Part shown: one piece after another, positions 5,130-26,464 of the stretch
Numbering within the stretch: position 1 is the first letter of the stretch
Layout: each line of letters begins with the position of its first letter
DNA from: Sphingobacteriia bacterium 24-36-13
GTDB lineage: Bacteria > Bacteroidota > Bacteroidia > Chitinophagales > Chitinophagaceae
Length of the DNA: 64,000 nt
Assembly: GCA_002281875.1 (NCBI GenBank)
Contig: NCHN01000003.1
Location: 60,291-124,290, forward strand
Direction: 5' to 3'
Program-made: the position numbers and the translations under genes
The notes under the pieces: model-generated
Told to the model about the DNA's origin: nothing
Database searches by the model: none
What the model saw: the letters and a program-made list of their open reading frames with translations, nothing else

Positions 5130-5999
5130 TCACTTTTTCAATGAAAATATTCTTGACAAATTAAATCCAAACTGGAATTCTCCTTTAGACCAACTATTGG
5201 TAGTTTCTGTAATAAAGGAGCGCTCATTCATTCCTGTTGAATTAGAAAAATGCAATTGGAATACGTGCCCACCCGTTTCAATATCTACACCAATAGACAA
5301 TGGGTTGGTTCCAACAGACATAGGCAGTCCATTAGCCACCAATGAATAATCTACTACCAAAGCAACTCGTTTTGAAATCTTGTGTCGGGCTCCTATACCT
5401 AATGCATAAATGGTTTTCTTGTCAGCAGGATCAATCATATTCCTGTACACCAATGTGGGACTCAATTGCAAAGAAAATGCTTCATTGAATTTTCTGCCAA
5501 TAATCAATTGTGCATAATATCCTGTTCGATCATTAAAAGTCAACGGCTTTAGTGGGTCCGGACTTTTATAAGTAAAAATAGAAGTACCTGCAACCGCTAC
5601 TAATGAAACAGGCGTACCTGCTTGTTCTTGGTGAATCAAACGGTATTTAATAAAAGCATCGTATTCTTTTTTGAAAGTGGTTCTACCAAAGCCAATGGTT
5701 AAATCATTGCTCAATCCAAAATCAAACCCCATACGCATACTGGCTTGGTCTAGCCCAAATAAATCACCAATGCCTTGTTTTACTGGACCAAATCGATGCA
5801 AGATTCTAAAGTCTAACATGCCCGCTCCCAACATTTCCATTGAATGACCATTGATGACTCTAGATGATTTAAAAGCACCGGTTACTTTATTATTCCCCTT
5901 TTGGTCTTTCTCTAATTCCTTCAATAAATTGTCTTGTGCAATTACAGAACAAGTAAATAGTATCATTAAACCAACAGTAGTAAATATCTTTTGCATCAT
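5130..5999 (-). CDS. DUF5777 outer-membrane beta-barrel, module A
   Basis: A 289-residue predicted outer-membrane beta-barrel. Signal peptide: MMQKIFTTVGLMILFTCSVIA. The family core is clear: SSRVINGHSMEMLGAGMLDF, HRFG, LFGLDQASMRMGFDFGL, then alternating amphipathic strands, and a conserved C-terminal block VDIETGGHVFQLHFSNSTG with a final strand FQFGFNLSRIF. It shares all these blocks with the protein at 16887-17792, so the two are paralogues. The start ATG overlaps the stop of the YceI gene (ATGA at 5999-5996), implying coupled translation. The domain has no known function; position and predicted topology suggest an outer-membrane pore or scaffold for the redox and lipid-binding proteins encoded just upstream. 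Confidence 0.85.
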   Translation of the reverse strand: MMQKIFTTVGLMILFTCSVIAQDNLLKELEKDQKGNNKVTGAFKSSRVINGHSMEMLGAGMLDFRILHRFGPVKQGIGDLFGLDQASMRMGFDFGLSNDLTIGFGRTTFKKEYDAFIKYRLIHQEQAGTPVSLVAVAGTSIFTYKSPDPLKPLTFNDRTGYYAQLIIGRKFNEAFSLQLSPTLVYRNMIDPADKKTIYALGIGARHKISKRVALVVDYSLVANGLPMSVGTNPLSIGVDIETGGHVFQLHFSNSTGMNERSFITETTNSWSKGEFQFGFNLSRIFSLKK

Positions 6000-6553
6000 A
6001 GATTGGGTTTTTGAATTTGATAGATTGCTTTAACATTAATATGGATGCTTTTTGCAATTTTATCTTTAACCAATTTGGGTATTTGAATAGCGTAGTCTTC
6101 CAATAATAAATCAAAATTGGAGTCTCCAGAAATGATTCCATCCTTTACTTGTAATTGAGCAACAGTAGCCATTTCAGCGGTTTTACCATGTAATTGCATC
6201 GTGCCTTTTACATTGAATTGGTAGTTGGCATTTTTAGTTAAATCAATGGTTGGTACCAACTGAATACTGCCTTTGAAATAACCCCTTGGATATTTACTAC
6301 TCTCTACATAATTTTCATTAAAATGTTCTTGCATTAAAGCATTGGGAAAAATGAATCCTTTCAAGAGCACACTAAATTCAATATTGCCCGTTTTTAAATC
6401 AATCACAGAAAGACCTTGATTATTCACTGCTTCAATATTTTCTAAAGGCATTTTAGAAAAGAATTTCACAGAAGCATTTCTGCAAAGCAGTCGCTCTTGC
6501 GCTTGGCTTTGGATTGCCAGCATCAGTAAAATTGCAATAACTATTTTTTTCAT
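5996..6553 (-). CDS. YceI-like periplasmic protein, module A
   Basis: A 185-residue exported protein with signal peptide MKKIVIAILLMLAIQSQA and a YceI-type lipocalin-like barrel. The conserved block MQEHFNENYVESSKYPRGYF (about residues 74-93) matches the HFNENY-x-ES-x-K-x-P region of the module B paralogue at 17802-18338. YceI family members bind polyisoprenoids or related amphiphiles in the periplasm. The gene sits four bases after the cytochrome-like lipoprotein gene and overlaps the DUF5777 gene, so the three form one transcript. A role carrying a quinone- or isoprenoid-type ligand between the lipoprotein and the barrel is inference. Confidence 0.82.
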   Translation of the reverse strand: MKKIVIAILLMLAIQSQAQERLLCRNASVKFFSKMPLENIEAVNNQGLSVIDLKTGNIEFSVLLKGFIFPNALMQEHFNENYVESSKYPRGYFKGSIQLVPTIDLTKNANYQFNVKGTMQLHGKTAEMATVAQLQVKDGIISGDSNFDLLLEDYAIQIPKLVKDKIAKSIHINVKAIYQIQKPNL

Positions 6554-6557
6554 TCAA

Positions 6558-6926
6558 CTAGTTGTTTAATCCACCGGATGAAACCCAACATGAAATGGCA
6601 TTCTTTTGGGCGGTAGTTAAAGCGCCATTTTTAGGCATCGTGCCAGACTCAACTGAACTTTTAATTTGAGCAGCTGCTGCTTTAATTTGGGTATAATTGG
6701 TTAAAGCACCTGGACCGTTTACACTGCCAGTATTATGGCAACCCACTGCGCCACAGCTGTTTTGAATGATTGGGAAAACAACAGCAGTAAATCTGCTATC
6801 AATGGTAGTGCAGTTGAGTGTAGTACCACCCGTACCAGGTGTTGGGGTTGTTGTACCTGAATCTGACTTAGAACAGGCAATGGCCACAAAAGCAACCATT
6901 ATAGAAAGGATCAATAACTTTTTCAT
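6558..6926 (-). CDS. c-type-cytochrome-like lipoprotein, module A
   Basis: A 122-residue lipoprotein: signal MKKLLILSIMVAFVAIACSK with Cys18 as lipid anchor, then a Thr/Gly/Pro-rich tether (TTTPTPGTGGTT) and a compact domain. That domain carries CGAVGCH (CX4CH), a variant of the CXXCH haem-attachment motif, followed by a Met candidate axial ligand in ESGTMPKNG and a conserved tail AISCWVSSGGLNN. The architecture matches the small monohaem domains of the planctomycete-cytochrome-c type that end in a W-I-x-x-G-M/L-NN block, as also seen in the module B genes at 18765 and 19147. Cys residues at CTT and CWV may form a disulfide. Haem binding is predicted, not shown. It is first gene of module A; no perfect TAnnTTTG box is seen upstream. 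Confidence 0.72.
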   Translation of the reverse strand: MKKLLILSIMVAFVAIACSKSDSGTTTPTPGTGGTTLNCTTIDSRFTAVVFPIIQNSCGAVGCHNTGSVNGPGALTNYTQIKAAAAQIKSSVESGTMPKNGALTTAQKNAISCWVSSGGLNN

Positions 6927-16886: not shown

Positions 16887-17792
16887 TTAAATAATTTTTG
16901 GTTTTTTGATGGTGAAAATACGGGCGATATTGAATCCGAAATGAATATCGCCTTTTCCCCATTGACCATCTGTTTCATGAATAAAAGTCCTTTCAGTCAT
17001 ACCAGTAGAATTAGAAAAATGCATTTGAAATACATGCCCCCCAGTTTCTATATCTACACCCACTGAAAGACTATTATAATAACCATTAAAATGTTGAAAC
17101 TGGTAATAATATTCCCCAGTAATATTTACTCTTTTACTTATTCTGATTCTAGTAGCAATTCCTAATGAGAAAAGATCATTAGGGTCGGTTGCTAAAGGAA
17201 CATTATTATAATGAACCATAGTTGGCGTTAGCTGCAAGGAGAAATAGTCATTGAATTTTTTAGCAATCAAAATCTGATTGAAATAACTAAAGCGATCTGT
17301 GTAATAGAATCCTGTACCTGCTGGATTATCAATTGTTTTCCAAATAACTCCCCCTGCATAGCTTACAGATAATGGCATATTGATTTTCCCAGTGCTTTGT
17401 CTTAGAATTCTATATTTTACAAAACCATCATATTGTTTTAGATAAGTACTTCTTCCTACTCCAATCATTAATCTGCTGTTAATACCATAATCGAGCCCCA
17501 TCCGCATAGATGCCTGATCTAATCCAAATAAATTGTATCCTCCAGTATTGACTCTTCCAAAGCGATGATTAATTTTTACATCCAGCAAACCAGCGCCAAT
17601 ATTTTCAATAGAATGTCCATTTACAATACGAGTGGTCTTAAATATTGCAGTAGTAATATCTGTTGTGTTCTTTTCTTTTTCCTTTTCTTCTTTTTCTTGT
17701 AATTTAAATAAATCAACTTCTTGTGCACTTACTATCACAGAACTCACAAAGCAAAAAAACAAAATAACAACTTGTCTAAGATTCAATTTCAT
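16887..17792 (-). CDS. DUF5777 outer-membrane beta-barrel, module B
   Basis: A 301-residue paralogue of the 5130-5999 protein. The signal peptide (MKLNLRQVVILFFCFVSSVIVSA) is followed by a short Glu/Lys-rich charged helix (LQEKEEKEKEKNTTD) not present in copy A. Shared blocks: RIVNGHSIENIGAGLLDVKI, HRFG, LFGLDQASMRMGLDYGI, VDIETGGHVFQMHFSNSTGM, and a last strand HFGFNIARIF. Alternating strands throughout predict an outer-membrane barrel. It is last gene of the sigma-linked run, nine bases after the YceI gene, and ends eight bases from the convergent hydratase gene with no visible terminator. Function unknown; conservation of the GGHVFQ-HFSN block in both copies marks it as the likely functional core. 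Confidence 0.85.
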   Translation of the reverse strand: MKLNLRQVVILFFCFVSSVIVSAQEVDLFKLQEKEEKEKEKNTTDITTAIFKTTRIVNGHSIENIGAGLLDVKINHRFGRVNTGGYNLFGLDQASMRMGLDYGINSRLMIGVGRSTYLKQYDGFVKYRILRQSTGKINMPLSVSYAGGVIWKTIDNPAGTGFYYTDRFSYFNQILIAKKFNDYFSLQLTPTMVHYNNVPLATDPNDLFSLGIATRIRISKRVNITGEYYYQFQHFNGYYNSLSVGVDIETGGHVFQMHFSNSTGMTERTFIHETDGQWGKGDIHFGFNIARIFTIKKPKII

Positions 17793-17801
17793 AGCCCTAT
17801 T

Positions 17802-18338
17802 TTAAAAATTACAATTGATTTGAATATTGGCTTCAGCAGCAATTTTTTCGCCGATATACGAACCAGCAATTTTATAATCGGCTAATTTTACACTGAAGTC
17901 ACTTTTTAAAGATGCTTTGCCAGATTTAACAGTAATAGTTCCTGGGGTTTGAATTTTTTGATCAACACCGTGAATAGTAAGCACGCCATCAGCTGTTACT
18001 TTATATACACCATCCACAGTAAAATTGACAGTGGCAATATTGGTGATATATCCCTTAAAACTTGCTTTAGGAAATTTAGTACTTTCTAAATAATTCTCAT
18101 TAAAATGATCTTCCATCAATTGGTTTTCGAATCGAAAACCTTTAACTAATAATGCAATTACAATTTGTCCATTAGTAGGAAGCATTTTACAATCAACCTG
18201 ATTATTCACTGCTTCAATTTTTACTAAACCACCTGTTGCATTAAACTTAGCAACACCCGATTTTGTAGATAATAAAGCTTGAGCACTCACACCATAAGCT
18301 GAACTCAACAACAAGAATAAAAAAAGATATTTTTTCAT
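17802..18338 (-). CDS. YceI-like periplasmic protein, module B
   Basis: A 178-residue exported YceI-family lipocalin-like protein. Signal MKKYLFLFLLLSSAYGVSA. The block MEDHFNENYLESTKFPKASF corresponds to the same region in copy A at 5996-6553, as does EAVNNQ near residue 42. In the second half GVLTIHGVDQKIQTPGTI is the standard YceI beta-hairpin. YceI barrels bind long isoprenoid chains, so a quinone or other amphiphile is a candidate ligand. It lies four bases behind the OB-fold gene and nine bases before DUF5777. Confidence 0.85.
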   Translation of the reverse strand: MKKYLFLFLLLSSAYGVSAQALLSTKSGVAKFNATGGLVKIEAVNNQVDCKMLPTNGQIVIALLVKGFRFENQLMEDHFNENYLESTKFPKASFKGYITNIATVNFTVDGVYKVTADGVLTIHGVDQKIQTPGTITVKSGKASLKSDFSVKLADYKIAGSYIGEKIAAEANIQINCNF

Positions 18339-18341
18339 AAA

Positions 18342-18755
18342 TTAATTTTTAGATTGAATAAAAGCATCTGTTATAACAACATCAGAGGTGAATCCGATAC
18401 ATACCCCTTTAATACTGATCTTTTTTTTGACTTCAATATTTTTATCTGCTTCTTTTAGGGTACAAAAAACCGCAGAAAAATCATTCGCACCATCAATGGT
18501 AATGGTGGTATTCCCTTCTTGATTTTGACCAACTTCTTTTACAATTCCTTCTACCACTAATGCTTTGTTCAAATATTTAGCATTTGCGTCAGGCTCATTG
18601 TTGTTATAAGCATACACCAATTCTACTGCACTAATTACAATAGCTTTTTCATCATTTACATTTCGTTTGTATTGTGCAGCGTATATAAATACATAATAAA
18701 GAATAGCCAATGCAATTAGAATAACAGAGCTAATTATGATAACCCATTTTTTCAT
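18342..18755 (-). CDS. tRNA_anti-like OB-fold envelope protein
   Basis: A 137-residue protein with one N-terminal membrane or signal segment (MKKWVIIISSVILIALAILY) and an OB-fold domain of the tRNA_anti-like family: LNKALVVEGIVKEVGQ, TTITIDGAN, VFCTLKE, KKISIKGVCIGF, VVITDAFI. In Bacteroidota this domain is seen in envelope proteins despite its name; nucleic-acid binding should not be assumed. The helical stretch before the domain (AIVISAVELVYAYNNNEPDA) is a typical lead-in. It is the only member of module B without a counterpart in module A. Spacing to neighbours is 9 and 3 bases, so it is in the same transcript. Confidence 0.72.
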   Translation of the reverse strand: MKKWVIIISSVILIALAILYYVFIYAAQYKRNVNDEKAIVISAVELVYAYNNNEPDANAKYLNKALVVEGIVKEVGQNQEGNTTITIDGANDFSAVFCTLKEADKNIEVKKKISIKGVCIGFTSDVVITDAFIQSKN

Positions 18756-18764
18756 GATACTTAT

Positions 18765-19136
18765 TTAGTTGTTTAACATTCCAGCATTAATCCAAACTTG
18801 AAATTTTGAAATATCGCAGGCCGATAATTTTCCGCCCCCCTTTGGCATGGCAGATGCTTGTCCATTCTGAATAATGGAGTTCATGAACTTTCCACCTAAA
18901 ACCGAAGCCCGAACTCCTACATAAGTATCCAAAACAATTCCAGCACCTGCAGCTGCATTTCCACCATGACAACTATTACAAGAAGCGTTTAGAATGGGCA
19001 TTAAACTGGTACTAAACTTTACATTAGCCGTATCACAAGTGATAGCAGAAGCTGCTGGATACACCAACTCACTTTTATCATAATAACATGCACTGAAAAA
19101 GAATAGCGCAAAAAATAATAGAAACAAATTCCGCAT
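18765..19136 (-). CDS. monohaem c-type-cytochrome-like lipoprotein, module B
   Basis: A 123-residue lipoprotein from the ATG at 19136: MRNLFLLFFALFFFSACYYD with lipobox Cys17 (an earlier ATG at 19166 would bury the signal). One classical haem site, SCNSCHGG (CXXCH), is followed by a Met in SAMPKGGGKL as candidate sixth ligand and the terminal block KFQVWINAGMLNN. The module A lipoprotein ends in the closely similar WVSSGGLNN. A cysteine pair (TCDT and ACDI) outside the haem site may form a disulfide. Expected location is the periplasmic face of a membrane. Haem attachment is predicted from motif only. Confidence 0.8.
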   Translation of the reverse strand: MRNLFLLFFALFFFSACYYDKSELVYPAASAITCDTANVKFSTSLMPILNASCNSCHGGNAAAGAGIVLDTYVGVRASVLGGKFMNSIIQNGQASAMPKGGGKLSACDISKFQVWINAGMLNN

Positions 19137-19146
19137 AATTATATTT

Positions 19147-19848
19147 TTATTGAGGCATCCCTGCATTAATCCACTTGGTCATTTGCTTGATCTTACATGC
19201 GTCCATTGGATTGCCTATTGGCATTCTTTGTGCTGCTGGTAAACTAGGCGCATGATTAATTGCATCTAAGAATAATTGCTTATTTGCGTTGATATAAGAT
19301 TGAGTTGCTGCAAGTGTTCCTAAATAAACATTGCCTGATCCTGGTGCAACACCATGACAACCGTTGCAGTTATTAGACAAGATGGTTTGTACAGAAGTAG
19401 AATAAGTAAACTTAGTTGTATCGCAACTATTAACACAGTTGGTATTTAAAGCACCTTGATCAATCCATTTTTTAATTAAACTTATTTGAGCAGTACTTAA
19501 TGCCGGATATCCTCTTGGAGGCATTTCACCTTTGGTGATTTCCTTATAATATTTACTATTAGCTGCATCTCTTGGTTTGATGCCCTTCATGATGGTGGTA
19601 TAATCGGTAGTTTGAACACCATCTGCTCTTGTATTGGCGTTATGACAACCTGCACTTGCACAGTAACTCACGTATAAGGGCAGTACATCGTTCTGAAAGC
19701 AAACAGTATCCGATACAGTTGTACCTCCTCCTGTTGTACCTCCTTGAACAATTACAGGTGTTGGATTAATTGCAGAATTCAAAAATTCATGCTTACAAGC
19801 CAACAAGAACAATGTGGCCATTAAACTTGAAACAATGATCTTTTTCAT
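19147..19848 (-). CDS. two-domain c-type-cytochrome-like lipoprotein, module B
   Basis: A 233-residue lipoprotein (ATG 19848; MKKIIVSSLMATLFLLACKH, lipobox Cys18). A Thr/Gly-rich tether leads to two tandem domains of the same type as its neighbours. Domain 1 has YCASAGCHN (CX4CH) and Met in GEMPPRGYP, ending IKKWIDQGALN. Domain 2 has NCNGCHG (CXXCH) and Met in RMPIGNP, ending MTKWINAGMPQ. Each domain also has a CNT/CDT-type cysteine near its border. So this looks like an internal duplication, one half keeping the CX4CH form also found in module A. It follows the anti-sigma gene by 44 bases without a terminator. Confidence 0.78.
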   Translation of the reverse strand: MKKIIVSSLMATLFLLACKHEFLNSAINPTPVIVQGGTTGGGTTVSDTVCFQNDVLPLYVSYCASAGCHNANTRADGVQTTDYTTIMKGIKPRDAANSKYYKEITKGEMPPRGYPALSTAQISLIKKWIDQGALNTNCVNSCDTTKFTYSTSVQTILSNNCNGCHGVAPGSGNVYLGTLAATQSYINANKQLFLDAINHAPSLPAAQRMPIGNPMDACKIKQMTKWINAGMPQ

Positions 19849-19892
19849 AATAGTCAATACACTATTATTGAAAAAGGGGTTGCCTCAGAAAA

Positions 19893-21236
19893 TTATTTTT
19901 TTTGCTTAGTAATTGGTATTCTTAAATTGAAATATAGGGCAATCGTTCCCAATTTATTATGCCCCTCGCCTAGTTCTTCTAAAGGAAGCTTGAAAGTTGG
20001 TTCAATTTCAAGTACCAGATTTCGCTTTGTTTTAACAGAAAGCCCTGTACCAATGGTAAGATTATTTAAAATATGTGATTCCCCATCATCGTCTGTGTCG
20101 TTGGCACTATTCCAAAGCAAAGGAGTGCTTCCATTTAACAATAAATCATACGTGTATTGTTGCTTTATGAAAAATAATGAAGACAAGCCTACAGAAGAGA
20201 TAAAAGACCATTTTTTATTGGGCCGAGCGGTATATCTAACTGAAAGTGGCACTTCAAAAACATGCAAATTACCTTTCACATTTCTTAATTCTAAACTAGT
20301 ATAACTAGGTAAGTTAGGGGAAGGCTTATACAAATAGCCATCTCCAGAAGCGTTAACAGTGGTATAATTATACAATAGCCCCGATCTAATTCTCCATTTA
20401 GGTGTTAAAATATAATTAACTCCTACGCCTATGGTAAACCCAGGTTGATGTAGAGGTTGCATATTAGCCAATAAAAAATCCGGAGCAGCTGTTAAATTCC
20501 ATTCCCATTTAGAAGGTTTCTTTTCCGAGTTTTTATCGCTGATTTTAACTATAGGAGAATCCTTTTCAATAGAAGTATCTTTTGAAACAAAATTCAACAT
20601 TTCAGTTTTTGAAATAACAGAATCATTTTTCTCCTCAATTTTCTCTTGCCTTACCGAATCAATTGCTTCTTTTTGTGTTTGTTCTAGTTGTTTCAAGCTG
20701 TCTTTACCGTTTGTTTCTGTAACAAAAACTTGCAAGTCCTTAGCCGATGTTGTAGGCGTAGGAATCGGAGTTTTATCTATTTGATCTGGAGTCTTATTTA
20801 TGTTGGGGGTTGTCTTATTTATGTTGGGTGCTGCCGCATTTATTTGGGGTGGTGCAATAGTTTTTATTGTAGATTCCTTATTTGATTTGATATTACTCTT
20901 TTTAGTTGTTAGAATTTCCTTATTCAAATTGTTCTGTTCACTTTTGAAAGGGAGTGCTTTTTTATTCCCTGGATCAACGGTTTGAATAGTATGAACCGCA
21001 TCAACTGATTCCTTTCTTGAAAAGTATCTCGAAGCACCTGTAATCAGTAGCCCAGCCATTAAAAAAATAAAGAACCAGAAAACAACTGGCCTTCTTTTTC
21101 TTTTTTGAGGCATTTCTTGATCTAATAATTGATGCATCTTGCTCCAATTAGTAGCATCACTATTGGCATCTTCTGCTTCTTTTTCAAAAGCATTCTTAGC
21201 AAGATCTTCAATTGATTTTGAGTAGAATTTATCCAT
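19893..21236 (-). CDS. predicted dual-membrane-spanning anti-sigma factor with C-terminal OM barrel
   Basis: A 447-residue protein with a remarkable layout: a cytoplasmic N-terminus (1-50, containing NWSKMHQLLDQEM and ending in basic QKRKRRP), one transmembrane helix (about 51-68), a 170-residue low-complexity Lys/Thr/Pro/Asn-rich linker (70-243) with near-repeats of PNINKT at 137-156, and a C-terminal beta-barrel-like domain (244-447; KWEWNLTAAPDFLL, FTIGVGVNYILTP, WRIRSGLLYNY). It overlaps the sigma-factor stop by eight bases. This matches the dual-membrane anti-sigma (Dma) class reported in Bacteroides, where the barrel sits in the outer membrane and the N-terminus holds an ECF sigma factor. 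Barrel status is predicted, and the anti-sigma role rests on topology and gene pairing. Confidence 0.75.
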   Translation of the reverse strand: MDKFYSKSIEDLAKNAFEKEAEDANSDATNWSKMHQLLDQEMPQKRKRRPVVFWFFIFLMAGLLITGASRYFSRKESVDAVHTIQTVDPGNKKALPFKSEQNNLNKEILTTKKSNIKSNKESTIKTIAPPQINAAAPNINKTTPNINKTPDQIDKTPIPTPTTSAKDLQVFVTETNGKDSLKQLEQTQKEAIDSVRQEKIEEKNDSVISKTEMLNFVSKDTSIEKDSPIVKISDKNSEKKPSKWEWNLTAAPDFLLANMQPLHQPGFTIGVGVNYILTPKWRIRSGLLYNYTTVNASGDGYLYKPSPNLPSYTSLELRNVKGNLHVFEVPLSVRYTARPNKKWSFISSVGLSSLFFIKQQYTYDLLLNGSTPLLWNSANDTDDDGESHILNNLTIGTGLSVKTKRNLVLEIEPTFKLPLEELGEGHNKLGTIALYFNLRIPITKQKK

Positions 21237-21807
21237 TCAATTTGCTTTTGGATGACAATAATAATTGTAAGTGTCGCTTGGCTTTAAACAAATTAGATTT
21301 AGAAGTACCCTCATTAATACCCAATAAATTAGCAATTTCCTGATGGCTATAGCCATCAATAATATGCAAACAAAAAACCGTTTTATAGCTCATGGGTAAA
21401 CTCATGACCAATTGGATGATTTCTTGGTAGCCCAATGTCTGAATGATTTCTTCATTAATTGCTGGTTCATATTGTTGCTGTTCAGTTAACTCTTCTATGG
21501 AAATAGCATCAGAAAAATATTTTTTAGAATAGTTAATACAGTTATTAATAAAGACTCTTTTAGACCAGCCTTTAAATGCTGCTTCTGAAACAGCATAATT
21601 ACTCATATCGTATTGTGCTATATTTTTAAATATTTTCATGAACCCATCCATGACCAAATCCTCTATTAAGTTTACCTCATTCGCATACCTTTTACAAACA
21701 GAATTAGCATACCCTTGCAACCACTCATAAAGAGCCCTTTGGCTTTGGCGATTATTCTTTCGACAGCCATCAATTATGTGCTTAATTTGCTCATCAGATA
21801 AACTCAA
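21229..21807 (-). CDS. ECF-type RNA polymerase sigma factor
   Basis: A 192-residue sigma-70-family factor of the extracytoplasmic-function group. Region 2 is visible as RALYEWLQGYANSVCKRYAN and DLVMDGFMKIFKNI; region 4 has SLPMSYKTVFCLHIIDGYSH followed by the helix-turn-helix QEIANLLGINEGTSKSNLFKAK. No ATG lies near the N-terminus and an in-frame TAG lies three codons upstream, so the start is probably the TTG at 21807, an unusual initiation codon that may keep expression low. It is the first gene of the run to 16887. Its direct overlap with the membrane anti-sigma gene is the normal pairing for ECF factors. Target promoters are unknown. Confidence 0.88.
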   Translation of the reverse strand: MSLSDEQIKHIIDGCRKNNRQSQRALYEWLQGYANSVCKRYANEVNLIEDLVMDGFMKIFKNIAQYDMSNYAVSEAAFKGWSKRVFINNCINYSKKYFSDAISIEELTEQQQYEPAINEEIIQTLGYQEIIQLVMSLPMSYKTVFCLHIIDGYSHQEIANLLGINEGTSKSNLFKAKRHLQLLLSSKSKLNG

Positions 21808-21845
21808 CCCTTGCTAATAATTAATCTATTCTGTTAATAATACAG

Positions 21846-21853
21846 CAAAGTTA
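21846..21853 (-). promoter_or_regulatory. -7 box upstream of the sigma/anti-sigma/cytochrome run
   Basis: On the minus strand TAACTTTG (plus-strand CAAAGTTA) is a perfect TAnnTTTG match, 38 bases before the TTG start of the sigma gene, inside the 88-base gap after the TolC gene. It suggests a housekeeping-sigma promoter for the run; whether the ECF factor also acts here cannot be told. Confidence 0.5.
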
Positions 21854-21895
21854 GCATTACGGTTGCCTACACTATATATAATTTTTGATGGAGAA

Positions 21896-23278
21896 TCAGC
21901 GAATTATACCTGCAGCCCAGCTAATTCCATAACTGGCTTTAAGGTATTTTGCCCTTAATTGAATAAGCTTCTCTGCTGTTTCAATAACCTTATTTTCACG
22001 AGTATTGAGTAAGAATAAGCTGCTCTCCCCATTTTGAAAACGAAGGTTTTCGGCTTTTAATAAAGAAGTATAACCATTATATGCTTGTTGAGCAGCAGCA
22101 ATTTGCTCTTTTAATAAAATGGATTCTGCATAGTAGGCTCTAATTTTATTGGCAATACTCCATTGCTTTGCATTTAACTCATAATTGGTTTCTGCAATTT
22201 TCAACTTTGCCTGTTTATAGGCTCCCTGGCCTTCTCTTAAAAACAAAGGAATTTTAAACTGAACGCCCCATACATAATTATTTTGCAAGAGTGCACCGCC
22301 AAAATTCTTCATCACATTATAGCCTTGATTTAATAAATTAGCTTTGATATTTAAAGAAGGTAGCAGAGATTGAAACTTTAATTTTCGTTCTACTTCCAAA
22401 GCAGCTAATTCTACATTCAAACTTTGTATAGATGGATTTTCTGCGTTTGCCCTAATAATAAGTTGATCTGGATTTTCAACAGTCATATACATTTGAAATT
22501 GTACCGTATCAGGCACAAATTTTTCATTGAGCAAGTAGGCGGCGTCATTTTCGTTCCACAAAAAATTGGCTAATTCAAGTTGAGCATTTACTAATTTAAC
22601 TTTGGCATCTGCTTGCAATAATTGGAATTGTTGAACTTGAGTAAGTGCTTCAATGGTATCAATTAATGCCCTATCTCCATTTTCGAAAGCCAATTTAACC
22701 AACCGAAATCGATCTAGACTCACTTGCAAAAACTGGCGATAAATACTAAACAACTGATACGAACCAGCCCATTGCCAGTATGCATTGTAGGCATCAAATA
22801 GTAAATCATTCTGCATTTTAAGTCGGTCTTGTTCACTCTGTTGAGTAAACAACCTTGCTTGCTGTAAATTAGCCCTTCGTTGGTCTAATAGCAAGCCTTT
22901 TACAAGCGGCAGTTCTAATCCTAAATAACTACTCTGCCCTCGCGTAATTTGATTATTTAAAAACAAGCCTCCATTATCTTCAACACCCGCTTTTATATCC
23001 ATGCCTCCAATTCTTGTTGGCAATTTTAATTCTGGATTGGTATAGAAATAATAATTTTTTCCATCAAATGTTTTTCTACTTGCATCTACTTCAAGTGTAG
23101 GATCAAACCCACCTTTGGCACTTAATAATGCTGCATTAGCTTTTTCTACTTTAATATTTGCTTGTTTAGCAATTGGATGAAAAGACCTAACCTGTTCAAT
23201 AAATTGTTCAGGGCTTAATACCTGTGCATTTAAATTGAATGCCCATATACAGCCAATTAAGAATAAATATTTTCTCAT
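21896..23278 (-). CDS. TolC-family outer-membrane efflux protein
   Basis: A 460-residue exported protein (signal MRKYLFLIGCIWAFNLNA) of the outer-membrane efflux family, the trimeric channel-tunnel of tripartite exporters. Long heptad-patterned helices appear in both halves (NLQQARLFTQQSEQDRLKMQ and ANKIRAYYAESILLKEQIAA), with short strand regions such as SSYLGLELPLVKGLL and NNYVWGVQFKIPLF that form the barrel in each repeat. Length is normal. The gene starts three bases after the HlyD gene stop and completes an ABC-HlyD-TolC set. Substrate is unknown. Confidence 0.88.
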   Translation of the reverse strand: MRKYLFLIGCIWAFNLNAQVLSPEQFIEQVRSFHPIAKQANIKVEKANAALLSAKGGFDPTLEVDASRKTFDGKNYYFYTNPELKLPTRIGGMDIKAGVEDNGGLFLNNQITRGQSSYLGLELPLVKGLLLDQRRANLQQARLFTQQSEQDRLKMQNDLLFDAYNAYWQWAGSYQLFSIYRQFLQVSLDRFRLVKLAFENGDRALIDTIEALTQVQQFQLLQADAKVKLVNAQLELANFLWNENDAAYLLNEKFVPDTVQFQMYMTVENPDQLIIRANAENPSIQSLNVELAALEVERKLKFQSLLPSLNIKANLLNQGYNVMKNFGGALLQNNYVWGVQFKIPLFLREGQGAYKQAKLKIAETNYELNAKQWSIANKIRAYYAESILLKEQIAAAQQAYNGYTSLLKAENLRFQNGESSLFLLNTRENKVIETAEKLIQLRAKYLKASYGISWAAGIIR

Positions 23279-23280
23279 GG

Positions 23281-24654
23281 CTATTTTCCCTTTTTTTCTT
23301 TAAGCTCACTCCCCTGCATAGGTGTATAATATTCAGGAGGGAATCCATTGATATTACGCCATAACTCGTAGCCTATTGGTACATCTTTTAACAAAGCTAT
23401 TCCATTAGCACCTCCGCCCATTCGTAATTGGCGAGGCCAAGGCTTTTCAGAAGGGTCTTCAACTACTAATAACCTAAACTTTCCATTAGTACTTACTGAA
23501 GTTTCTACTGCTGCAACTCTTCCTCCAAATGTTCCATAAGAAGCTGCTGGCCAGCCAGTAAAAACAATTGCAGGAAATCCATCAAAAACAAACCTAATTT
23601 TTTGACCAATAGCTAAGAGTGGCAAGTCCATTGGTTCTGCAAATAACTCCACTGCGTATTTTATATTGTCTGGAACAATTTCTACAATCATGTCACCTTC
23701 TTTTACCATTTCCCCAATACCTGCTTTTCTAGCTTTGGTAATTTGACCATTTTGAGGTGCCGTTATATAATAGAGCTTATTTCTGATATCATAATTGCTA
23801 TAGGCATTTTGCAGTTTTGCTACGTCAGCTTCCCCAGTTGCCATATTAGACAATGAACCAAATTGTTCACCCTGTGCTTTGGCTATTTTATCGGTGTACT
23901 CTTGAATTGTACCGTTTTTTTCAATTCGGATCGCGGTTAATTCTTGCTTGGCTTGTAAAAATTTATTTTCAGCACTGATTTTTTTAGCCAATGCATTCTG
24001 GTAACTAACTTTTCTTCTTTCAAAGTCAACCAAAGAAATTACTCCACTATCCAACATGTTTTTTGCTGCGTCTATTTGTCTTTTTGCTACAGACAATTCA
24101 TTCATTACTGCACCTAAATCAATACTATCACTTACTACTTTTAATGATTGTTGACGAAGTTTAACGTCTAACTGATCTAACTTTAAATCTCTTGCTTCTT
24201 CCAAAGCATTTATTTGAGATACTGCAGTTGCTGCTTTATTACTATACCCATCAACGGCAATTTGCTTAGCATCAATTTGTTTCTTAGTCCTATTTAGTAA
24301 TTGAGGATCAAAATAATCTGTTTTAACCTCCCCAATCTGCATGATGGTGTCTCCCTTCTTTACATAATCGCCCTCTTTAACATACCACTTAACCACACTT
24401 CCAGCCAAAACCGTATTTAATTCTTGTGGGCGATCTTCTTGTCTTAATGCTGTTACCGCACCTTTAGCTCTAATATTTTGGGTCCAAGGCAAAAACAAAA
24501 CAATAATTAATAAAATTAATGATGCCCAAAGCCATTTCTTAACATTGTTCTTATTCTGTATTCTATAAATATGCTGATACGAATTAATTGAACTATTTTC
24601 AACAGCATCCTCTATTACAGTACTTATAAATTTATTACTGTCCATAATTTTCAT
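23281..24654 (-). CDS. HlyD-family membrane fusion (periplasmic adaptor) protein
   Basis: A 457-residue adaptor linking the inner-membrane ABC protein to TolC. A single transmembrane helix lies near residues 39-62 (WLWASLILLIIVLFLPWTQN). The lipoyl-like half-motif VKWYVKEGDYVKKGDTIMQI follows, then a long coiled coil (about 115-265), the second lipoyl half YYITAPQNGQITKARKAGIG, and a beta-barrel domain. The C-terminus ends in a charged tail, ELKEKKGK. ATG 24654 and the fourth-codon ATG are both possible. The gene overlaps the ABC gene by 20 bases, so coupling is likely. Confidence 0.88.
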   Translation of the reverse strand: MKIMDSNKFISTVIEDAVENSSINSYQHIYRIQNKNNVKKWLWASLILLIIVLFLPWTQNIRAKGAVTALRQEDRPQELNTVLAGSVVKWYVKEGDYVKKGDTIMQIGEVKTDYFDPQLLNRTKKQIDAKQIAVDGYSNKAATAVSQINALEEARDLKLDQLDVKLRQQSLKVVSDSIDLGAVMNELSVAKRQIDAAKNMLDSGVISLVDFERRKVSYQNALAKKISAENKFLQAKQELTAIRIEKNGTIQEYTDKIAKAQGEQFGSLSNMATGEADVAKLQNAYSNYDIRNKLYYITAPQNGQITKARKAGIGEMVKEGDMIVEIVPDNIKYAVELFAEPMDLPLLAIGQKIRFVFDGFPAIVFTGWPAASYGTFGGRVAAVETSVSTNGKFRLLVVEDPSEKPWPRQLRMGGGANGIALLKDVPIGYELWRNINGFPPEYYTPMQGSELKEKKGK

Positions 24655-26356
24655 TTAAAAGTGGAGCAATAGTAGACCAATTACCAGCCGCTTTTACAAA
24701 GCCATCTTGCAAGTAAATAATTTTATTACAACGAGCTGCAGTTTCAACGTCATTGGTTGCAATGATTACAGTTGCATTCTCTTCTGAAAATATATAGTCT
24801 TGAATATTGTGTTTATATGTTTTTTCTAAAAAATTAAGCGGCTCTTCTAATAATAAGAGTCGTTTTTTCCCTAGCAACGCTCTTAATAATAATATGTCTT
24901 GTCTAATTTTACTATTCAACCTTTTACCAGTAGGATCTAAAATGGTATCATATCCTTTTGGAAGTCCTTGCACAAAACTGGTTAAACCACATCTATTCAC
25001 TAAATCTGTTACTTCATCATATTTTATTTCTTCACTTCCCATGGTGATATTCTCCCAGATACTGCCATGAAAAATATCTTGTTGACTTAATAGAATTCCT
25101 GTTTGTGATCTTACAGAATTTAGGTTATAGTTTCCCATTGGAATTCCGTCTAATAAAATGGAACCAGTAAAATTATTAAACGCTCCAGTTAGTAATCTTA
25201 AAATGGTAGACTTTCCAGATCCAGATTCTCCCATAATACATACTTTATCACCAGGCTCTATATTTAAGCTTAAACCTTCCAGCGCTTTTGCATTATTCCC
25301 ATAAGTAAATCCTACATTTTCGAATAATAAAGACACTCCTTTTGGGGTGTCTGCCAATAGAACCGTTCCCTGTACTTCAATTTCGCTTTCCGTTATTTTA
25401 CTCAATTTTTCTACAGATGTAAGTAAATCATATACTTTATCCATATTCAGAATCAACTTCTCCACTGAAGCTATAATACTTAAGATAACAATATCTGCTG
25501 CAATAAACTGACCAATATTAATCTGCTGATCAACCAATAAAACAGCTCCTACAATAAGCATTGCAGCTGTAATTACAACCTTAAAAATGATTAGACTCCA
25601 ATATTGGGTAAGTAAAACTTTAAAATAGCTGGTTCTGGCATCTAAATATTGTGTTACAATGCCATCTGTTTTACGAATATTAAGCTTAGTTCCTCTTGAA
25701 TATTTAAATGATTTAATAACCCTTGCCATCTCTTCTAACCAAGCTGCTGTTGCAAATTTCTGGTTACTTGCTTCAATACTTGCCTGAAACCCTGCAGGCA
25801 AAGTATATCTCATAATCAAATAAACTATTAACGTTAGAACAGCTCCAAAGCCTATGAATACAGGGTGATATAAAGAAAGTAATATTAGCCCAAAGAAAAT
25901 CTGAATAATAGCCGCAGGTACATCTAACAATAATTTTTCCACTGCTTTTTGTAAAGACACAGTATCAAAAAAACGGTTAACCAATTCAGGTAAATAATAT
26001 GCGTCCAATTTTTCTATGTTCATTTTTGGAAGCCTATCAGCAAATTCAAGGGAATATCTAACAAATAATTTTTGTTGAATTTTTTCGGTTACTTGAAGTT
26101 GCCTTACTTGTAAGAGACCATAAATAAGTACAGCCGCAACTACTAAAATGATTAAAATAACAATAGAAGTAGATAAGGAACCTGCCATTACAAAACCAAT
26201 AATGGTTTGAATTCCCAATGGCATAGCAAGACTTAAAATACCTGCTAAAATAGCAAACGCATATATGGAAGAAACGTCTTTTTTGTCTAAACTAAGTAGC
26301 TCTAATATCTTTCGAGCTGCACCCATGGGTGATACTACATTCTTACTTTTTTCCAT
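24635..26356 (-). CDS. ABC exporter (permease-ATPase fusion) with degenerate ATPase motifs
   Basis: A 573-residue half-transporter with a type-I exporter membrane domain (about 30-310) and one nucleotide-binding domain (about 340-570). The ATG at 26356 was chosen over an upstream TTG. Walker A is intact (GESGSGKST, 376-384) and a Q-loop is present (LLSQQD). The rest is altered: the LSGGQ signature reads LNSKIRQ (about 480-486), Walker B reads LLLLEE instead of four hydrophobics plus DE (500-505), the D-loop reads NFLE, and the H-loop His is Asn (ATND, about 535). The downstream HlyD and TolC genes suggest a real export complex, with ATP binding but poor or absent turnover. No N-terminal peptidase domain is seen. 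The window shows no candidate substrate. Confidence 0.85.
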   Translation of the reverse strand: MEKSKNVVSPMGAARKILELLSLDKKDVSSIYAFAILAGILSLAMPLGIQTIIGFVMAGSLSTSIVILIILVVAAVLIYGLLQVRQLQVTEKIQQKLFVRYSLEFADRLPKMNIEKLDAYYLPELVNRFFDTVSLQKAVEKLLLDVPAAIIQIFFGLILLSLYHPVFIGFGAVLTLIVYLIMRYTLPAGFQASIEASNQKFATAAWLEEMARVIKSFKYSRGTKLNIRKTDGIVTQYLDARTSYFKVLLTQYWSLIIFKVVITAAMLIVGAVLLVDQQINIGQFIAADIVILSIIASVEKLILNMDKVYDLLTSVEKLSKITESEIEVQGTVLLADTPKGVSLLFENVGFTYGNNAKALEGLSLNIEPGDKVCIMGESGSGKSTILRLLTGAFNNFTGSILLDGIPMGNYNLNSVRSQTGILLSQQDIFHGSIWENITMGSEEIKYDEVTDLVNRCGLTSFVQGLPKGYDTILDPTGKRLNSKIRQDILLLRALLGKKRLLLLEEPLNFLEKTYKHNIQDYIFSEENATVIIATNDVETAARCNKIIYLQDGFVKAAGNWSTIAPLLNENYGQ

Positions 26357-26464
26357 TGCGGGCAAATATTACAAGTATTATACCTAAAGTCGTTTAACTG
26401 CCAATAAGCTTTTGTGAAAGTACTTAGCTTAATATTCCTAAAATGAATAATTGGCCAATTTCTA

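Follow-up and report, generated by a model that had tools for sequence, protein, structure and literature searches.

A Dma/Reo-like sigma and anti-sigma pair in one run with YceI, cytochrome and DUF5777 genes in a Chitinophagaceae bacterium

The anti-sigma factors Dma1, Dma2 and Reo combine an N-terminal domain, one transmembrane segment, a disordered tether and a C-terminal outer-membrane barrel, as described in the accessible parts of the reports (PMC13088901, PMC13114119, PMC9308784). Loss of Dma2 raises expression of das2 and neighbouring genes, Dma1 and Dma2 mutants hypervesiculate, and genes adjoining dma2 in Bacteroides thetaiotaomicron are dispensable for vesiculation (accessible part of PMC13088901). 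Reo has been proposed to sense outer-membrane stress: the sigma gene of the Phocaeicola vulgatus pair rises 33-fold under an envelope-damaging toxin, and induction of EcfO-Reo by prolonged oxygen in Bacteroides fragilis is reported second-hand (accessible parts of PMC13114119, PMC9308784). In Burkholderia, lipid peroxidation is limited by a YceI lipocalin together with a cytochrome b561, and other YceI proteins were found to hold ubiquinone-8 or other isoprenoids (accessible part of PMC9113575). Here, we describe a 64,000-nt stretch of Sphingobacteriia bacterium 24-36-13 (contig NCHN01000003.1, positions 60,291 to 124,290; hereafter the window), in which an extracytoplasmic function (ECF) sigma factor (SIG) and a predicted dual-membrane anti-sigma factor (DMA) head a run of genes for two cytochrome-type lipoproteins (CYT2, CYT1), an OB-fold protein, YceI and DUF5777. 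Drawing on the published stress sensing by Dma/Reo proteins and on the YceI–cytochrome b561 defence against peroxidation, we read this run as an outer-membrane stress switch driving redox protection: it is, on balance, somewhat probable that the run is a sigma/anti-sigma operon of the Dma/Das (EcfO-Reo) kind that regulates itself and has, as its direct output, an envelope redox module limiting oxidative damage.

According to the open reading frames (ORFs) of the window, the seven genes all lie on the minus strand from 21807 to 16887, in the following order:

21229 to 21807, minus strand: SIG, ECF sigma factor of 192 amino acids with a TTG start (Pfam PF08281 and PF04542 over cut-off)
19893 to 21236, minus strand: DMA, predicted dual-membrane anti-sigma factor of 447 amino acids (PF13568, hydropathy, composition and alignment)
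19147 to 19848, minus strand: CYT2, lipoprotein with CX4CH and CXXCH sites, ATG at 19848 (PF13442, PF07635 and PF00034; lipobox by eye)
18765 to 19136, minus strand: CYT1, cytochrome c lipoprotein with one CXXCH, likely ATG at 19136 (PF13442 near cut-off; CXXCH by eye)
18342 to 18755, minus strand: OB-fold protein with an N-terminal membrane anchor (PF12869, E 1.8e-16; hydropathy)
17802 to 18338, minus strand: YceI-family lipocalin-like protein, signal peptide by eye (PF04264, E 1.4e-13)
16887 to 17792, minus strand: DUF5777 outer-membrane barrel, 12 strands predicted (PF19089 over the Pfam cut-off)

The successive junctions measure -8, 44, 4, 9, 3 and 9 nt, the value of 4 nt between CYT2 and CYT1 assuming an upstream CYT1 start and becoming 10 nt with the likely ATG at 19136. 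The initial annotation, made from the letters alone, had described seven co-directional genes with gaps of at most 44 nt, opened by an ECF sigma factor overlapped by its anti-sigma factor and free of internal terminators, and these points are borne out, as regards terminators in the sense of none beyond chance: terminator-like sites number three against 3.0 expected, one of them inside the DMA gene on the coding strand. The seven genes thus stand, but the proposed beginning at the sigma factor does not, since the same strand continues upstream with ABC (ATP-binding cassette), HlyD-like and TolC-like genes (by eye; window 21896-26365), the last of which ends 88 nt before SIG without a terminator-like site on that strand. 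No structured RNA was matched by Rfam at gathering score, and PADLOC gave no defence-system match for the three proteins tested.

SIG carries sigma regions 2 and 4 (PF04542, 26.5 bits; PF08281, 50.6 bits; both over cut-off) and shares 31-45% identity with 12 sigma factors from related loci. The start of DMA overlaps the end of SIG by 8 nt, and its domains comprise a transmembrane segment at about residues 50-70, a tether at about 71-245 and an outer-membrane barrel at about 246-447. The single hydropathy peak above 1.6 covers residues 51-69 (window starts 48-52), residues 71-245 contain 70% disorder-promoting residues (composition only), and the barrel matches PF13568 over residues 260-411 with 39.6 bits against a cut-off of 27. 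Profile comparison with hhalign aligned this barrel to three Bacteroidales Dma-like proteins at 98% probability, the alignment covering the barrel alone and not the N-terminus, where relatives of DMA share a conserved motif with an invariant W31. DMA therefore looks like a protein of the membrane segment, tether and barrel architecture of Dma/Reo anti-sigma factors, its anti-sigma role being predicted. A switch of the same architecture might also control outer-membrane vesiculation, given the hypervesiculating Dma1 and Dma2 mutants, with the module as cargo. This is very unlikely in view of the dispensability of the dma2-adjacent genes for that process, and none of the seven genes matches the NigD family in Pfam.

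Among the remaining proteins, CYT2 exceeds the Pfam cut-offs of PF13442, PF07635 and PF00034, and CYT1 scores 26.1 bits with PF13442 alone, below the cut-off of 27, and 27.1 when listed with its neighbours. Each has one CXXCH haem site, the second site of CYT2 being a CX4CH that is only a candidate for haem binding. Among 84 related cytochrome-type proteins, 36 carry CX2CH only, 31 CX4CH only, 15 both, one two CX4CH sites and one neither, with an MP motif in 83 of the 84. The OB-fold protein belongs to the tRNA_anti-like fold (PF12869) and has a hydropathy peak of 3.25 at residue 5, and the YceI protein matches PF04264 with 51.9 bits (cut-off 23.7). Sequence searches of the PDB returned no hit for YceI at E 0.1 nor for DUF5777 at E 5, and Pfam matched no cytochrome b561 among the seven genes. 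Elsewhere, three open frames of about 600 amino acids carry two DUF5777 domains each (G058:C1:1307151-1308746, G063:C73:29767-31365 and G141:C1:3570056-3571669).

GCAACC is a -35-like element of Bacteroidota ECF promoters, and it served only as the lead for a motif search in which three elements became relevant:

21840 to 21867, minus strand: P1, ECF-type promoter GGCAACC-N16-TGTAT upstream of SIG, one of two exact genome matches, recurring in relatives
19857 to 19884, minus strand: P2, the same motif between DMA and CYT2, the other exact genome match, at the same place in loci L127, L143, L156 and L196
21846 to 21853, minus strand: TAnnTTTG -7 box, TAACTTTG, present in the sequence inside the P1 spacer

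For the organism's own 3.07-Mb genome, to which this count applies, the strict motif GGCAACC-N16-YGTAT has exactly these two matches, against one for the backward-pattern control and 0.07 expected per 64 kb. In relatives, [GC]CAACC lies near the start of 16 of 18 SIG ORFs, window included (in L068 it falls inside an ORF whose call is too long), and the two ORFs lacking it, the first of L060 and that of L085, are not DMA partners. The composite P1 element precedes 12 of the 18 SIG ORFs and 3 of 694 other genes; in loci outside this first set, it precedes six of nine DUF5777-linked SIG genes against 1 of 159 other ORFs (Fisher P 2e-8). The earlier claim of self-regulation of the sigma system is supported by this motif evidence before SIG and in relatives.

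P2-type sites after DMA occur in five of 87 DMA loci, window included, compared with 25 of 1224 windows after other ORFs (six loci matched, of which L252, with TGCAACC 88 nt downstream, was excluded). They are found in four of the nine scanned rows of the window's ten-row sigma clade, L141 being unscanned (P 3e-5 computed on ten rows; 7e-4 for 3/9 without the window), and of the other four loci, L127, L143, L156 and L196, three have a gene for a cytochrome-type lipoprotein next. A CGT box at -10 is reported for a Flavobacterium psychrophilum promoter class ascribed to ECF factors, in the accessible part of PMC9723704.

The initial annotation had noted a -7 box before the run, and it does exist (TAACTTTG, 21853-21846), but it sits within the spacer of the better supported ECF promoter and recurs in none of 15 relatives carrying the element. 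TAnnTTTG is about half as frequent in the window as chance would have it (48 found, 103 expected), as expected for an avoided promoter box, and this scarcity leaves room for the -7 box to provide basal expression.

To what extent does the pair accompany the module in other genomes? Of the genomes sampled, DUF5777 is present in 128 of 147 within the family and in 153 of 395 across the phylum. Out of 95 DMA profile matches (excluding six fragment rows of genes already counted), at least 29 have DUF5777 within 6 kb downstream, or at least 16 of 82 once the 13 profile seeds are set aside. This linkage follows the DMA score, with 12/12 at 400 bits or more (11 of these 12 being profile seeds), at least 7/13 between 330 and 400 bits, and at least 10/70 below. 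Similarly, SIG, DMA and DUF5777 occur together in 20 of 80 sigma-led loci, a set made of the best 80 of at least 585, across many families, with loci of Hymenobacter, Pontibacter, Rufibacter, Dyadobacter, Pedobacter, Mucilaginibacter and Marivirga among them, as well as of Rhodohalobacter, outside Bacteroidota. A next gene lies within 400 nt in 40 of 54 SIG-DMA pairs and is of module type in 29 (14 cytochrome, 5 YceI, 4 CHRD, 4 Rieske, 1 cupredoxin and 1 OB), and in 10 of 20 for pairs without DUF5777 nearby. Such pairs are favoured by the profiles for DMA, Rieske, CHRD and cupredoxin, whose training proteins were linked to modules and came in part from these very loci. The linkage between SIG-DMA and the module is statistically far above chance.

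Sixty DUF5777 loci of the family, comprising the top of the score-ordered list and some lower-scoring ones, show the pair in the same run in 15 cases (in L088 downstream of the module rather than upstream), a two-component system in 15 and neither in 30. The two regulators never occur together (hypergeometric P 0.005 for 62 loci, the window's two modules included). The two-component type, a module with histidine kinase and response regulator and often another YceI gene, is seen in L041, L044, L050, L055, L062 and others, being in L050 a propeller/Y_Y_Y histidine kinase with a LytTR regulator (Pfam).

Several observations weigh against a dedicated switch for the module. The pair is missing from 45 of the 60 family loci and from all six same-genus DUF5777 loci examined (L037-L039 of genome G087 and L237-L239 of G519), and it adjoins only four of 40 DUF5777 loci of other families, mostly top-scoring matches. 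The initial annotation had named loss of the pair beside the module in most related genomes as an observation that would overturn the idea; such loss is literally what is seen, and on this count the link fails. On the sigma tree, the link label changes 16 times, against a shuffled mean of 29 with none of 500 shuffles as low. At the level of the promoters, the strict motif has 139 matches in 17 relatives versus 68 for the backward control, only 10 of them at the module (hand count), and so relatives may have wider regulons. Allowing two mismatches barely enriches it in the own genome (303 versus 259). The composite precedes just two of seven unlinked family SIG genes in loci outside the first set, and a looser pattern in the sigma-led set precedes 12 of 20 linked and 23 of 41 unlinked loci (background 47/787), which makes it a general promoter of the sigma group and no mark of the module. 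Beyond the family, the composite is found before none of five SIG genes (background 2/360), yet GGCAACC is before four of the five: either the -10 region is different there or the gene starts were called wrongly. The excess of P2-type sites across all DMA loci is weak (P 0.04), and almost no leader separates P2 from the ATG, while leaderless mRNAs amount to only 5.5% in F. psychrophilum (accessible part of PMC9723704).

These data led to the rejection of three ideas. A single stable inheritance of the link is incompatible with the 16 label changes, of which at least nine are forced by well supported branches, and the pairing of SIG-DMA with the module is old or recurrent, not stable. A motif specific to module-linked sigma factors is contradicted by its equal frequency before unlinked ones, and a wider regulon in the own genome, through the 303 two-mismatch matches against 259 backward controls, was taken as noise. 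Other arrangements also occur: G087 has a SIG-DMA pair with one cytochrome elsewhere in its genome, the unlinked module of L092 offers a single motif match for trans-control, and L262 combines SIG with a 525-amino-acid protein matching no Pfam family.

Might SIG and DMA then regulate only themselves and remote genes, their adjacency being a convenience and the module ordinary respiratory or lipid-handling housekeeping? Most modules do lack the pair, 34 of the 54 SIG-DMA pairs have no DUF5777 nearby, and the motif is a general one for these sigma factors, with many other sites in relatives. We nevertheless regard this as rather unlikely, with P2 placed between DMA and the first cytochrome, and with the DMA-DUF5777 linkage and the module-type next genes counted above.

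Under the autoregulated operon that we favour, SIG would be held at the inner membrane by DMA, and freed when damage or oxidation is felt by the outer-membrane barrel of DMA. Freed SIG would then fire P1, for SIG and DMA, and P2, for the cytochromes, OB-fold protein, YceI and DUF5777. The lipoprotein carriers might hand electrons on to YceI, which would bind a lipid or quinone at the outer membrane, DUF5777 would be a channel in that membrane, and the module could thereby limit oxidative damage to the envelope.

The initial annotation also raised the question whether the outer-membrane-sensed switch induces a second locus of the window, module A, of which the seven-gene run was said to contain the complete set plus an extra cytochrome and an OB-fold protein. 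Module A (6926-5130) comprises:

6558 to 6926, minus strand: cytochrome-like lipoprotein with CX4CH (by eye; sub-cut-off Pfam match to an unrelated family, PF21827)
5996 to 6553, minus strand: YceI (PF04264 over cut-off)
5130 to 5999, minus strand: DUF5777 (PF19089, E 9.8e-93)

The comparison of content holds, the core of cytochrome, YceI and DUF5777 being the same, with a cytochrome bearing CX4CH instead of CXXCH. The linkage of the switch to the redox module likewise stands as far above chance, but common control of the two modules is unsupported: no GCAACC element lies upstream of module A and the genome has no third strict match, and module A was rejected as a regulon member.

Across relatives, YceI and a small carrier (cytochrome c, Rieske or cupredoxin) with DUF5777 form a widespread core, the constant parts usually being YceI and DUF5777 while the carrier varies. 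Within the family it is mostly a cytochrome c; Dyadobacter, Pedobacter, Mucilaginibacter and others have a Rieske protein, and Rhodohalobacter has a cupredoxin plus a cytochrome; in Rufibacter, Pontibacter and Hymenobacter, CHRD or Lipoprotein_15 proteins stand beside the cytochrome. Of the 40 loci from other families, 33 contain a carrier gene of the cytochrome, Rieske or cupredoxin type and 32 contain a YceI gene (at most five genes away, same strand). That the partners stay fixed while unrelated one-electron carriers replace each other points more strongly than anything else here to electron transfer as the shared role. A broader and speculative proposal, which we hold to be unlikely, is that YceI, swappable one-electron carriers and DUF5777 make up an unrecognised outer-membrane redox relay of Bacteroidota, switched by separately recruited sensors (Das-Dma, propeller kinase-LytTR, ECF-FecR). 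A quinol source in the inner membrane would feed electrons into lipoprotein carriers (cytochrome, Rieske or cupredoxin) that deliver them to the outer membrane; certain lineages would add a further step, to cupredoxin or DOMON proteins exported to the cell surface by the type IX secretion system (T9SS).

Alternatively, the module could be an outer-membrane electron conduit, in which electrons reach the cell surface by way of the carriers and DUF5777, with the switch doing no more than adjust the flow. T9SS sorting tails are indeed carried by a DUF5777 neighbour in seven of the 40 outside loci by Pfam (two cupredoxins, four DOMON-like proteins of which only one exceeds the DOMON cut-off, and one other), with L294 as one further weak case and L296 below cut-off. 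A subgroup of DUF5777 genes also stands beside cytochrome c, 4Fe-4S and NrfD genes, as in quinol oxidoreductases (L093 by Pfam; L094 and L095 by gene layout). Against this, the run has no multihaem protein, with at most two haem motifs per protein, and the predicted 12-strand barrel of DUF5777 is small for a protein-filled conduit. Near DUF5777, tails are found in none of 143 genes of the sigma-led set and none of 94 of a third set, and the family set has two in 457 near genes, both on 425-amino-acid proteins of L062 and neither a redox protein. Tails were therefore rejected as a general feature of the module, and we judge a conduit quite improbable.

Further arrangements were noted in other loci. 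In L264, L269 and L274, a divergent ECF sigma gene flanks a module of OB, cupredoxin, DUF5777, cytochrome and YceI genes; L264 and L274 have a FecR-type anti-sigma factor beside the sigma gene and a cupredoxin with a T9SS tail (Pfam), and in L269 another T9SS-tailed protein occupies the place of the cupredoxin. T9SS-tailed DOMON-like proteins and ankyrin-type proteins lie near cytochrome, YceI or DUF5777 genes in L268, L273, L278 and L282, with a Crp-family regulator placed upstream, seen by Pfam in L268 and, judged by eye, in L273 and L282 as well.

On the sigma tree, the SIG of the window clusters with L042, L127 and L128, outside the main linked clade of 12. L127 and L128, the nearest sigma relatives of the window, have genes resembling heavy-metal or copper handling 3' of DMA (by eye). 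Together with the cupredoxins of some modules, this would suit a system answering copper or other metals, which is highly improbable here: the seven genes matched no metal-handling family in Pfam besides haem proteins.

Taken together, one operon joins an anti-sigma factor of the Dma/Reo type with the widespread YceI and DUF5777 families, and, with two candidate promoters whose strict motif occurs nowhere else in the genome, their coupling is directly testable. To the initial annotation the system had looked undescribed. The regulator class is in fact known (Dma/Das, EcfO-Reo), but none of the papers searched describes its coupling to this redox set. The open-licence literature searched yielded no mention of DUF5777 and, among the titles and abstract openings listed, no account of this gene set under GCAACC with sigma factors, or under YceI joined with Rieske proteins, cytochromes, sigma factors or quinone.

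How does the locus compare with described systems? Conduits of the Mtr/Pcc type combine a multihaem cytochrome with a large barrel, neither of which is seen in the run, with at most two haem motifs per protein and a predicted 12-strand barrel. DUF5777 shares only 5-15% identity with the small outer-membrane channels FapF, KdgM and NanC (12-strand) and the COG4313 channel, and a shared fold is no evidence of function. BcnA-LcoA of Burkholderia is alike in placing a YceI lipocalin in an operon with an electron-carrying cytochrome at the envelope, and is stress-induced; it differs in its partner, a cytochrome b561 instead of lipoprotein c-type cytochromes (elsewhere Rieske or cupredoxin) with an outer-membrane barrel, and the main text of its paper mentions no sigma factor. 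EcfO-Reo of B. fragilis and P. vulgatus shares the anti-sigma factor reaching from cytoplasm to surface, here predicted, whereas its regulon, in the accessible parts of the reports, includes nigD genes and a lipopolysaccharide glycosyltransferase, with no YceI redox module in those descriptions. Dma/Das of B. thetaiotaomicron (Dma1-3, paired with ECF21 sigma factors) is known to act on vesiculation and on NigD and glycan loci, and the words cytochrome, YceI, redox and Rieske do not occur in the main text of the paper. The Dma/Das systems are nevertheless alike in a sigma gene beside an anti-sigma gene of membrane segment, tether and barrel, and in the control of neighbouring genes, here predicted from motifs; the run described here places this regulator type outside the gut species in which, according to the accessible parts of the reports, Dma and Reo have been studied.

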